From a virus, in IMG/VR virus record IMGVR_UViG_3300024518_004795, positions 1 through 21,134 of that record: 21,134 nt of DNA, one strand, 5' to 3'. The translations under genes were made by a program, and so were the position numbers. Below, piece after piece: positions 8,243-17,368 of the stretch (positions within the stretch are counted from its first letter, which is position 1; every line of letters starts with the position of its first letter). The notes below the pieces were generated by a model. The model did no database searches, was not told where the DNA came from, and saw nothing but the letters and a program-made list of their open reading frames with translations.

Positions 8243-10251
8243 CACGCGCGCCAGCAAGCGAACGGCGGAACCTTTTCCACACTCCCCTCCTGGATTGCGT
8301 CCACGAAGCGCACGGTCCGGTGGTCGTGATTCGACCCCGGCCGGTAGTCGTGGAAGATGATCGTCTTCGCCCCCGTGTCGTGGGCGGTCTTGAAGTTCGC
8401 GCTCACGGACTCGTAGGAATGGTTCCCGTCGACGAAGACGAGATCGGGACGGAGACCGAGGTGCTTGATCGCCCCGTCAAGGGCGTCGTCGCTGTCGATG
8501 ATGAAGGCCGCGATCCGGTCGCGCACCTTGAACACCTCCCAGACTGAATTACGGGCGGGCTGCAGGAGGATATCGAACGTGACCACCATCTCTGCGTGCT
8601 GGGCCATGATTGACGACGACACGCCCTGGAAGGTGCCAATCTCAAGGGCGATGGTGGGCTTGGCGTCCGCGAGCAGTTTGCGGAAGATCTCCTCTCCGTT
8701 GTACCCGAGCATCGACCAGCGCACAGCCTCCTCGCCAAGGGTGTCGATAAGCTCGCGCGTGACGCCGATGCTGAAGTCGTACTCCGCGGTCGAGACGCGC
8801 TGTTGCTTGCAGCAGGCGAGGGAGGCCTGGGTCTGCTCCCGGATCGGCGTCCCCTGACCGCGCACGGGGGCGATCAGACTCTTGAACCGGCGCGAGACCT
8901 GGGTCTGTTCGATGACGGGCTCGCCAGCCTCGACCATGAGGTCGAAGATCTGGCAGTAGGTAGCGGGGATGTTGTGGACGTCGACACCATCTGGATGCAC
9001 GAGGACCTCCTGTAGGTTCTTCTGCTCCCACTGAGGCTTAGGCTTCGCGCCCTCTTCCCGGTTACGACGCACCCAGCGATCAAGAAGGCTGCGCACCGAG
9101 GCGGTGTTCTTGAGGTACATCACCGCGCTGTCGAGCTCCTGCTCGGTGCAGCCCGCGCGCCTCTTGTACTGAGACCAATCGATCGAATGCACCCCCAGAT
9201 CGTGCGGATAGTCCTGGAACAGAGCCGGGTAACGGCAGACACGGGAGTCCACGTCCACCCAAACGACGTCGCGTCCCCCGTGCTCGTCCAGAGACGTGCG
9301 CAGGAACTCCGCCTTCTTGTATGTATTGAGGTCCCAGCTGCCCTCGTTCGGGATTCCTTTGATCGAGTGCTCCAGCGAGAACTTGCGCAGTGTACCCTGC
9401 AGTTTCGGTACTTCATCCTCATACGGCGTCCCTTCCGTGTAGAATGAAACGAAGACCGGCCTACGCACTTGGGGGACATCGGCGAGCTTTCCTTTCTCGA
9501 AGCACTCGAGGGCGCTCTCCTCACTCAGGTTGATCACCCGGGTCCGTTCCTTGATCCAGGGAGCAGCCTTGTCGAAGAAGCCGCGGAAGTTCTCGTACAC
9601 CCTCGACCCCTGCACCGAGGGGTAGCCGTCGTGGAACCAGACCTGGCTGTCGCCCTCGCCGTGCATGTCGTAGCCGAGCAGGTAGATCGGATTGGCGCCG
9701 AGGCAGATCGCCAGGTTGAGGGCGGCGAACCCGGAGTTCTGTCCGTGTCCGAGCCCCTCGACGATCGAGGGCGACATGCCGTTCGGGTTCGGGTGGCACT
9801 TCAGGTAGTAGATCTCGGGTGCGAGGTCGTAGTCCGAGGTCCGGAGCCACGTCTTCATCGCCGTCGAGCGCAGGAACGCTTCACGGGAACGATCCCCCAG
9901 CTTGTTGGACTCGATCCAGCCCCAGAGACGGTAGTCCATCGAGAAGAGGATCGTGGGGTCGTAGTACTCGAACGCCCGGTTGATCCCGATCGAGAGCTCG
10001 TACTTGAGGAAGTCCCAGTCGAAGTTCTTGAGGCTGGGACCGCCGCCGACGAGGAAGGCGCGACCGCCTTTCCAGGCTCCCTGCGGCAGATGGCGCCAGA
10101 GCAGTTGGCGCTCCCCGTGAGGGGATTGGATGTCTTCCACGCCCTCAACGTCGAGAGCGTGCCGCCATTCCGGTTTATTGATGATTCGTTTTTCGGGAAG
10201 TCCGCGCCGCCGTCTGCGGAGACGCTCCGCCCTTACCTTGTCGAGAGGCAT
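8242..10251 (-). CDS. Three-domain fusion: MptE-like, glycosyltransferase, SAM methyltransferase
   Basis: 669 residues with AAAGGAG upstream of the ATG at 10251. Residues about 60-250 match the MptE-like/DUF115 domain: 'AFLVGGGPSLKNFDWDFLK', 'GINRAFEYYDPTILFSMDYRLW', 'GQNSGFAALNLAICLGANPIYLLGYDM'. Residues about 264-440 look like a nucleotide-sugar transferase: 'VFVSFYTEGTPYEDEVPKL', 'GSWDLNTYKKAEFL', and 'VVWVDVDSRV' with the DxD metal-binding pair at 333/335. Residues about 490-669 form a class I methyltransferase: SAM motif 'ALEIGTFQG' (535-543), 'DLVFVDGNHSYESV' (603-616) and 'IIFHDY'. All three motif sets look intact. The substrate is unknown. Its place straight after the major capsid gene suggests modification of the virion surface or of a host glycan. 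All three domains are known in phages; the single-chain combination is noteworthy. Confidence 0.8.
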   Translation of the reverse strand: MPLDKVRAERLRRRRRGLPEKRIINKPEWRHALDVEGVEDIQSPHGERQLLWRHLPQGAWKGGRAFLVGGGPSLKNFDWDFLKYELSIGINRAFEYYDPTILFSMDYRLWGWIESNKLGDRSREAFLRSTAMKTWLRTSDYDLAPEIYYLKCHPNPNGMSPSIVEGLGHGQNSGFAALNLAICLGANPIYLLGYDMHGEGDSQVWFHDGYPSVQGSRVYENFRGFFDKAAPWIKERTRVINLSEESALECFEKGKLADVPQVRRPVFVSFYTEGTPYEDEVPKLQGTLRKFSLEHSIKGIPNEGSWDLNTYKKAEFLRTSLDEHGGRDVVWVDVDSRVCRYPALFQDYPHDLGVHSIDWSQYKRRAGCTEQELDSAVMYLKNTASVRSLLDRWVRRNREEGAKPKPQWEQKNLQEVLVHPDGVDVHNIPATYCQIFDLMVEAGEPVIEQTQVSRRFKSLIAPVRGQGTPIREQTQASLACCKQQRVSTAEYDFSIGVTRELIDTLGEEAVRWSMLGYNGEEIFRKLLADAKPTIALEIGTFQGVSSSIMAQHAEMVVTFDILLQPARNSVWEVFKVRDRIAAFIIDSDDALDGAIKHLGLRPDLVFVDGNHSYESVSANFKTAHDTGAKTIIFHDYRPGSNHDHRTVRFVDAIQEGSVEKVPPFACWRA

Positions 10252-16039: not shown

Positions 16040-16333
16040 TCAACGGGAAAGGGCTTCGCTGGCCTCGTACCGCTTCCGAGAGGCGATCAGCGCCAACTCG
16101 CGCGTTGTCACCGCAGCCGCGCCCTGTACAACAGCCCGACACCGCTTTGAGGGAGTCAGGTCGAAGTGTTCAGTCGGGGTCCCTTCTCTCTGAATCCACT
16201 CCCCCTTGAGGCCGATCGTATCCGCCGCCGTGAGCAGTTCCTCGGTCGAGTCCGCCATCATGTGGCAGGCGTAACCGTACGCCCACGCGCTGCCCTCGAC
16301 CACCGGTTCGGGCCAGTCTACGTAAACAGTCAT
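16040..16333 (-). CDS. DUF4031 protein
   Basis: 97 residues with AAAGGCGG upstream of the ATG at 16333. It matches the DUF4031 pattern: 'MTVYVDWPEP' at the start, 'CHMMADSTEELLTAADTIGL' in the centre, and 'EHFDLTPSKRCRAVVQGAAAVTTRELALI' near the end. The family has no established activity and is common in phages and prophages. Its conserved Asp and His positions suggest a small metal- or nucleotide-related domain, but this is unproven. It lies between the DNA methyltransferase and the terminase. Confidence 0.82.
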   Translation of the reverse strand: MTVYVDWPEPVVEGSAWAYGYACHMMADSTEELLTAADTIGLKGEWIQREGTPTEHFDLTPSKRCRAVVQGAAAVTTRELALIASRKRYEASEALSR

Positions 16334-16348: not shown

Positions 16349-17368
16349 TTAGCCTATTCGTGCCCGGAGCCGCCGCCAAGCCTCAGCAGCTGCAAGAGGC
16401 ACTTGACCGTTTCCGAGGGCCCGGAGGCGGTCCACCCGATCGGGAACCCCATGAGCCATTCGACCCACGAAGGGTTGAGAGGGCCCTGCACCTGGTCCCC
16501 CAACCCCACCGAGTGCCCCCCCGCCTTCCGTTTCTCCGGAGACTGCCAGCCCCTCGGTGTCCCGTCCCTCGCCTGCGGCGTCGACCACCTTCGTTTCGCC
16601 TCCGCATACGTCGGCCGGGTCGGAGTCCCACCACGTACCCAGTACCTCACCGCCGTCCCGAGATGCGTCACCTTCTCGATCGATCGCCCCGTCGTCCGCG
16701 GGCAGCCCATGATCCCGTCCGAGGCCTTGGGGGTAGGCCAGTGGAACACCGCCGCTGGCAGCGCCAAGTCCCCCTTGCTCCCCCTCTGGTTCGGGCCCCC
16801 CTTCGCGCCGTCCGTTGACCGAGGCGTAGGCCAGTACCCAGACCCGTTTGCGGAGGTGGGGGGCGCCGACGTCGGCCGCAGAGAGCACACACCACTCCGC
16901 ATCGTACCCGAGGTCGGCCAAGTCGCCAAGTACTCGCCCGAGGTAACCGGCTTGCGTCGGCGTGGGGTTACCCTTTTCCCGTCGAGGGCATCGAAGCCCG
17001 GGAGTGTTCTCCAGGAAGACGAAACGGGGTCCCACTTCACGAACGACGTCTCGGAAGGCCGGCCACATGTTTCTGGGATCGTCTTCGCCGAGCTGTCCGC
17101 CCGCGAGGGAGAAGGGCTGGCAGGGGAATCCACCCGACACGACCTCAACCATTCCCCGATACTCTCGGGCGTATCCCTCCCCCACGAAGGATCGAATGTC
17201 CCCGAAGATGGGGGCGGGAGCCAGAAGACCGTCGGCGATCCGCTGTCTGAGGACTCGCTGGCAGTAGGGGTCCCATTCGACGTAACCGAGGGTCCTGAAG
17301 CCGAGCATGTACTGGGAGGCGATGAGGCCGCCCCCTGCGCCTGAGAAGAGGGAGAGTTCATTGAGCAT
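16349..17368 (-). CDS. C5-cytosine DNA methyltransferase
   Basis: 339 residues from the ATG at 17368, preceded by GGAGGCGGAG; an upstream in-frame extension lacks a good site. The enzyme methylates cytosine C5 in DNA, probably to protect phage DNA from host restriction. Motif I is 'LSLFSGAGGG' (5-14), motif IV 'SGGFPCQPFS' with catalytic Cys83, motif VI 'FLENTPGL', motif VIII 'HLRKRVW' (171-177), and the motif IX/X region 'VGRMAHGVPDRVDRLRALGNGQVP' (301-324). All key residues are intact. The stretch between VIII and IX, about 120 residues, is Gly/Glu-rich and should hold target recognition. No cognate restriction nuclease is present. A second long frame lies on the same strand within this gene (see the next entry). 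Confidence 0.9.
   Translation of the reverse strand: MLNELSLFSGAGGGLIASQYMLGFRTLGYVEWDPYCQRVLRQRIADGLLAPAPIFGDIRSFVGEGYAREYRGMVEVVSGGFPCQPFSLAGGQLGEDDPRNMWPAFRDVVREVGPRFVFLENTPGLRCPRREKGNPTPTQAGYLGRVLGDLADLGYDAEWCVLSAADVGAPHLRKRVWVLAYASVNGRREGGPEPEGEQGGLGAASGGVPLAYPQGLGRDHGLPADDGAIDREGDASRDGGEVLGTWWDSDPADVCGGETKVVDAAGEGRDTEGLAVSGETEGGGALGGVGGPGAGPSQPFVGRMAHGVPDRVDRLRALGNGQVPLAAAEAWRRLRARIG
16354..17361 (-). CDS. Overprinted frame with WPTP repeats, inside the methyltransferase gene
   Basis: An open frame of 335 codons from the ATG at 17361, only 7 bases after the methyltransferase start and served by the same Shine-Dalgarno. It covers nearly the whole gene in another frame of the same strand. 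Its translation is patterned: 'ETSFVKWDPVSSSWRTLPGF', 'EYLATWPTSGTMRSGVCSLRPTSAPPTSANGSGYW', three units like WPTPRSTDG / WPTPKASDG / WSTPQARDG, and 'LNPSWVEWLMGFPIGWT' (DNA 16429-16479). I recall these motifs from phage and prophage proteins near C5 methyltransferases, some annotated as methyltransferases themselves. Either a genuine second protein is made or the family is an echo of the methyltransferase frame. Long open shadows are common in GC-rich DNA, so expression is unproven. Confidence 0.35.
   Translation of the reverse strand: MNSPSSQAQGAASSPPSTCSASGPSVTSNGTPTASESSDSGSPTVFWLPPPSSGTFDPSWGRDTPESIGEWLRSCRVDSPASPSPSRADSSAKTIPETCGRPSETSFVKWDPVSSSWRTLPGFDALDGKRVTPRRRKPVTSGEYLATWPTSGTMRSGVCSLRPTSAPPTSANGSGYWPTPRSTDGAKGGPNQRGSKGDLALPAAVFHWPTPKASDGIMGCPRTTGRSIEKVTHLGTAVRYWVRGGTPTRPTYAEAKRRWSTPQARDGTPRGWQSPEKRKAGGHSVGLGDQVQGPLNPSWVEWLMGFPIGWTASGPSETVKCLLQLLRLGGGSGHE

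Follow-up and report, generated by a model that had tools for sequence, protein, structure and literature searches.

The methyltransferase gene studied here raises the question of whether its second reading frame is translated into a protein of its own and, if so, what that protein does for the enzyme encoded in the first. The gene pair lies on the minus strand of a 21,134-base viral record, the whole of which is called the window here. One frame encodes a C5 cytosine methyltransferase (alpha); the other is the +1 frame of alpha on the same strand and is open over a stretch that begins upstream of alpha and closes with the stop at 16354, with ATG 17361 or GTG 17400 as candidate outer starts. 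The protein overprinted in this frame is called beta. A first-pass annotation, made from the sequence alone, had described both frames with their coordinates and motifs, and had pointed to bases that read as PFVGRMAHGVPDRVDR in one frame and as NPSWVEWLMGFPIGWT in the other; we find all of this as described, and the double reading is exact. The three W[PS]TPxxxDG units are likewise present, as two WPTPxxxDG and one WSTPQARDG, and LAY-type segments of alpha do give WPTP units (LAYASVNG and WPTPRSTDG; LAYPQGLG and WPTPKASDG). Directly downstream of the methyltransferase gene is a gene for a DUF4031 protein (16043–16333, minus strand; Pfam 6.5e-16, phrog_4887). Elsewhere in the window, between structural genes, a 669-aa protein (8245–10251, minus strand) resembles phrog_4603, which is labelled alpha-2,3-sialyltransferase (2e-25).

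Table 1. Coordinates of the alpha and beta features in the window, with loci of a second overprinted family
Feature	Position	Strand	Remarks
Alpha, C5 cytosine methyltransferase, 339 aa	17368 (ATG) to 16349 (stop)	−	Motifs I–VIII and X, without IX
Alpha motif I, LSLFSGAGGG	17327–17356	−	
Alpha motif IV, GGFPCQPFS	17108–17134	−	Catalytic Cys; beta constraint starts about here
Alpha motif VIII, GAPHLRKRVWVLA	16829–16867	−	
Alpha motif X, RALGNGQVP	16397–16423	−	G319, N320, V323 and P324 kept in 54 alphas
Beta, overprinted +1-frame protein	16354–17148	−	Constrained from about 17133; proposed start TTG 17148 (uncertain)
5′ part of second frame from ATG 17361	17149–17361	−	Open here, no constraint signal
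Beta WPTSGTMRSG element	16891–16920	−	Overlaps alpha between motifs VI and VIII
Beta repeat WPTPRSTDG	about 16807–16834	−	Alpha reads the same bases as LAYASVNG
Beta repeat WPTPKASDG	about 16714–16741	−	Alpha reads the same bases as LAYPQGLG
Beta repeat WSTPQARDG	16561–16587	−	
Beta motif IX segment, NPSWVEWLMGFPIGWT	about 16429–16476	−	Same bases give alpha PFVGRMAHGVPDRVDR
Beta2 loci (second overprinted family)	L210:816–1253, L205:1739–2089, L211:1733–2092		30 more loci

Alpha has the motifs by which a C5 methyltransferase is recognized: I, IV (PCQ), VI (ENx), VIII and X. It matches phrog_363 (E 4e-61) and, over residues 7–184 only, the Pfam family DNA_methylase (E 6e-30). Foldseek aligns ~182 residues of its AlphaFold model with M.HhaI (E 1.5e-13), and its similarity to M.HhaI and M.HaeIII extends to motif VIII. 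At the C terminus is a conserved EPxVGRVAxGVxxRVDRLKALGNGQVP segment that includes motif X. Between these parts, residues ~200–308, the expected site of target recognition and of motif IX, are modelled with a pLDDT below 50, and motif IX is absent from the alpha frame, both by pattern search and by the end of the Pfam match at residue 184.

The second frame matches phrog_1008 (E 4e-23, residues 72–315) and no Pfam family. Across relatives, beta contains [W]PTPxAxD units together with an LNPxWVEWLMGFPxGWT segment that hardly varies, and the P, G, R and G of the WPTSGTMRSG element are invariant in an alignment of 18 sequences. AlphaFold gave a poor model for beta on its own (pLDDT 61.7, pTM 0.27), a structure search with it found no fold match, and the beta profile gave only chance-level matches to PDB sequences; what kind of domain beta is therefore has to be judged from its sequence.

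In the window alone, the openness of the second frame is weak evidence of coding, because the gene is 68% GC and the +1 frame is stop-free in five of 100 synonymous shuffles of alpha as well (P about 0.05). We therefore turned to homologues, and fetched viral loci by the alpha protein only, so that their selection is independent of beta. In 23 such loci without an in-frame motif IX, the +1 frame contains a single stop where synonymous shuffling predicts 68.1, whereas the +2 frame of the same loci contains 178 against 182.4 expected. Free second-frame stops in homologues were what the first-pass annotation had proposed as the mark of a meaningless frame, and they are nearly missing. A second alpha-selected set, obtained with a methyltransferase that has motif IX in frame as the query, behaves in the same way: no +1 stops are present in the 20 genes that contain the beta motif (50.4 expected), and the seven with an in-frame motif IX have 115 (123.5 expected), a contrast that extends from motif IV almost to the C terminus of alpha.

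Conservation of the beta sequence itself was measured with a profile trained on 100 loci, with the window left out. The second frame of the window scores 230.1 bits, and 200 shuffles with alpha's protein sequence and codon usage preserved score 64.7 on average and 106.8 at most; all 21 of the 21 alpha-selected test genes score above every one of their own shuffles. Third bases tell the same story when two alphas have an identical residue with a four-fold degenerate codon. In the GNAx group, third-base identity at these sites is 0.322 where only alpha is encoded, 0.705 over the motif IX segment of beta and 0.318 beyond the beta stop; over the motif IX segment it reaches 70–74%, versus 32% in unoverlapped regions, figures that compare regions and are not independent events, because the alpha pairs share ancestry. 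GC content by codon position also shifts within the overlap. E-values and shuffles are uncorrected for shared ancestry, and the counts cover loci that fit the motif patterns, the picking of genes by pattern having missed some loci. These results confirm that the second frame is conserved and that this one gene is dual coding, and the stop depletion, the profile scores and the four-fold sites support the proposal of the first-pass annotation that it may make two proteins. Stop depletion, profile scores and four-fold sites also lead us to reject for the family, and to give almost no credence to, the idea of beta as a shadow, an untranslated by-product of the high GC content and conservation of the methyltransferase gene: stops are depleted in the +1 frame only and only where alpha is without motif IX, profile scores far exceed those of shuffles, the raised four-fold identity of alpha ends at the beta stop and beta is an ORF of its own behind truncated alphas, even though the GC content, the 5% of stop-free shuffles and the share of the profile score that alpha conservation alone provides (the shuffle mean) all speak for such a by-product, and in its 5′ part the frame behaves exactly like one.

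What beta contributes is indicated by relatives in which the same segments are arranged differently. Six single-chain methyltransferases (L365, L369–L372 and L393) carry PCQ, [W/L/F]PTP units, a motif IX segment (NxxWVExLMGxPxGW or SARFAEWMMGWP) and motif X in one frame; their +1 frames are full of stops, and single-chain C-terminal parts match phrog_1008. In L393, the motif IX segment is followed by PRV...NRIKRLKGLGNAVVP, as held by alpha, and there is no overlap. In a further group (Catdawg, Charm, L163, L166, L332 and L116), alpha is cut short and the ORF after it contains the motif IX segment together with motif X; in all of these but Charm, the early end was placed after motif VIII or before motif X. 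The L116 beta also matches positions 244–316 of Pfam DNA_methylase (E 6e-5), that is, its C-terminal part. Because the single chains have the segment in frame and the split relatives have motif IX in the second ORF, we conclude that motif IX of the enzyme resides in beta. With motif IX missing from alpha and present in beta, and with single chains that hold everything, alpha and beta are likely two parts of a single methyltransferase; the most likely reading is that one gene makes both subunits.

We propose that alpha and beta are overlapping-frame subunits of one DNA cytosine-5 methyltransferase that come from a single message and join in an active enzyme, and we put the probability of this at about 0.82. 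One message would yield both chains, with beta read one base further and starting inside alpha. Alpha would bind SAM and carry out catalysis through motifs I–VIII, along with its C-terminal motif X. Beta would supply the missing motif IX. It would probably also account for much of target recognition, through the WPTP units, which sit where single-chain relatives have their recognition region. The two chains would then associate into the active enzyme, with which the phage would methylate its own DNA.

Two other functions of the conserved frame have to be considered. Beta could be a separate overprinted regulator or anti-restriction protein and not an enzyme subunit, a role that would suit the lack of a recognizable fold in lone beta and the existence of a second overprinted family, beta2 (see below), conserved on methyltransferases with a motif IX of their own. 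We consider this very improbable, because the in-frame single-chain counterparts tie beta to the enzyme, the beta of L116 resembles the C-terminal part of DNA_methylase, and alpha would otherwise be left without motif IX. The other possibility is a programmed frameshift near motif VIII, by which a single chain with motifs I–VIII, the WPTP units and motif IX would replace free beta or be made beside it. Almost every nested locus has motif X in the alpha frame, so the shifted chain would be without it, and the MSWLFSQAL subgroup keeps a start codon in the beta frame, with Asn encoded by AAT in 22 of 24 genes versus 38% elsewhere. The fused single chains do show that this order of segments is workable in one polypeptide, and many loci of the GNAV group have no obvious conserved beta start; on balance, we hold a frameshift to be unlikely and retain two subunits from one gene as the preferred reading.

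If beta is a separate chain, it needs a start. The first-pass annotation had both proteins begin at a shared ribosome site with starts 7 bases apart. The ATGs of alpha (17368) and of the second frame (17361) are indeed separated by 7 bases, but the shared site is not supported here: over the first ~75 residues after ATG 17361, the window scores 47.9 and its shuffles average 49.3, which indicates no constraint, and its nearest relatives (L088, L090, L093 and L096–L099) have stops within this N-terminal part. Upstream of motif IV, beta-selected viral loci have 88 +1 stops versus 102 expected, a weak depletion. Certain groups do retain an early start. Among alphas ending in GNGQ, a +1 ATG or GTG eight bases before the motif I codon, just after the alpha start, is found in 23 of 25 scanned (L093 and L096 are GNGQ-type loci without it), and GNGQ-type loci have four upstream +1 stops versus 22.6 expected. 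A sister group conserves a +1 start codon 4 nt past the alpha start, and in the MSWLFSQAL subgroup the N-terminal part of beta scores above its shuffles. For the window, we think that beta probably starts internally. TTG 17148, behind the purine-rich GGGGAATGG, is the likeliest start, a choice made with low confidence; a TTG preceded by a purine-rich stretch is in the same place in L088, L091, L093, L096, L098 and L099, and this position is also favoured by conserved alpha residues. In two Acinetobacter loci (L395:2270–2320 and the start region of L179), a good ribosome site and an ATG suit beta, and alpha has no ordinary ATG nearby and is annotated from a TTG.

The arrangement is not peculiar to this virus. 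A scan of prokaryotic species genomes with one conserved peptide yielded 374 relatives, of which 80 were kept for analysis; in 73 of these 80, beta lies nested in the +1 frame, and the alpha around it is full-length and continues past motif IX. The nested loci come from many bacterial phyla and one archaeal bin. A wider set of loci has 298 nested in +1, none in +2 and six fused, proportions that are not unbiased because many of these loci were fetched with beta as the query. Of the seven prokaryotic loci that are not fully nested, L163 and L166 have an alpha that ends after motif VIII and a second ORF with motifs IX and X; the remaining five (L144, L182, L186, L198 and L203) have an alpha frame that is broken or was not recognized, and these may be pseudogenes, sequencing errors or real splits. 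In L166, L163 and L332, the second ORF runs from the motif IX segment into an alpha-type PRV...LGNGQVP, with no overlap.

As its other option, the first-pass annotation had suggested that an annotated family grew out of the alternate frame and afterwards went its own way. This is not what the distribution shows: outside the nested loci, family members are found behind a truncated alpha or fused in frame with the methyltransferase, beta is rarely alone, and no clearly independent stand-alone beta was found among the 80 prokaryotic loci. The overlap may have come about by overprinting or by the splitting of a single chain. We find that a nested arrangement known from one well-studied enzyme is widespread in viruses and bacteria, and we found no description of the overlap in phages in the open-access papers searched. 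Both frames are annotated in Likha (51/52), Catdawg (5/6) and Charm (79/80), and alpha alone is annotated in E. coli PT62 and in A. baumannii plasmid records. Because gene callers usually retain only one of two overlapping frames, a required subunit of a large group of methyltransferases is probably missing from many annotations, and phrog_1008 and phrog_16143 offer a cheap fix for those of phages. Codon recoding when such a gene is cloned would destroy beta. With one enzyme in nested, split and fused form, the family also provides material on how overlapping genes arise and are undone.

Examination of methyltransferases that keep motif IX in frame revealed the second overprinted +1-frame family, beta2 (LSDILE...KYFLS). 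In 33 alpha-selected loci with an in-frame motif IX, the +1 frame stays open for 110 codons starting at motif IV. Twenty-two of them contain an LSDILExxVPEKYFLS-type segment and have no +1 stops where 54.7 are expected, against 198 +2 stops (186 expected) and 204 (202 expected) in the downstream region; the other alphas from this search have stops at expectation. All 16 of 16 held-out genes beat all of their shuffles, and four-fold identity is 0.50 in the overlap versus 0.34 and 0.29 on its flanks. The beta2 pattern was picked post hoc from inspection of the frames, although the loci for stop counts and held-out tests were selected by alpha. The frame matches phrog_16143, and a beta2-type segment (LKDILETEVDEKYFLS) is in frame in 15 single-chain methyltransferases. 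Because beta2 lies on alphas that keep motif IX, a +1 frame can be conserved for reasons other than the supply of this motif. We tentatively raise the possibility, which we would not yet favour, that +1 overprinting of C5 methyltransferases is a general device, with at least two families carrying segments that are elsewhere in frame, and that the WPTP units are exchangeable recognition modules shadowed by LADS- or LAY-type repeats in alpha.

Comparison with known systems places the window among enzymes with divided motifs. M.HhaI and M.HaeIII are single chains with which alpha shares motifs I–VIII, but alpha is without an in-frame motif IX. The second-frame family is already present in PHROGs v4 as phrog_1008 under the label ‘DNA methyltransferase’, which is silent on its origin inside another methyltransferase gene. 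The closest parallel is M.EcoHK31I, whose two genes are said to overlap in different frames, an observation attributed to Lee et al. in 1995. The window has the same layout: its large chain carries motifs I–VIII and X, motif IX is in the small chain, and the small chain is encoded in an overlapping frame of the gene for the large one. This likeness is one of described motif layout. In M.EcoHK31I, which recognizes YGGCCR, the larger chain has motifs I–VIII and X and the smaller chain has IX only (PMC3404938); according to the title of reference 18 in that paper, both proteins are required in vitro. Its predicted target-recognition domain is in the larger chain (PMC3404938), whereas the variable part of the window alpha looks disordered and the WPTP units are in beta. 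A second-frame protein within a phage methylase gene is also described in an actinophage, where an out-of-frame HNH endonuclease with a ShiLan domain is encoded (PMC11855218); that protein is an inserted homing endonuclease and not part of the methyltransferase. In M.AquI (CYCGRG), the catalytic motifs are in one chain and motifs IX and X are in a smaller one (PMC3404938). M.AquI and the window both separate motif IX from the catalytic chain, but the window keeps motif X in alpha and so has no M.AquI-type small chain; such a chain, with IX and X, is found in L163, L166, L332 and L116, and the arrangement in Catdawg, L163 and L166 resembles that of M.AquI.
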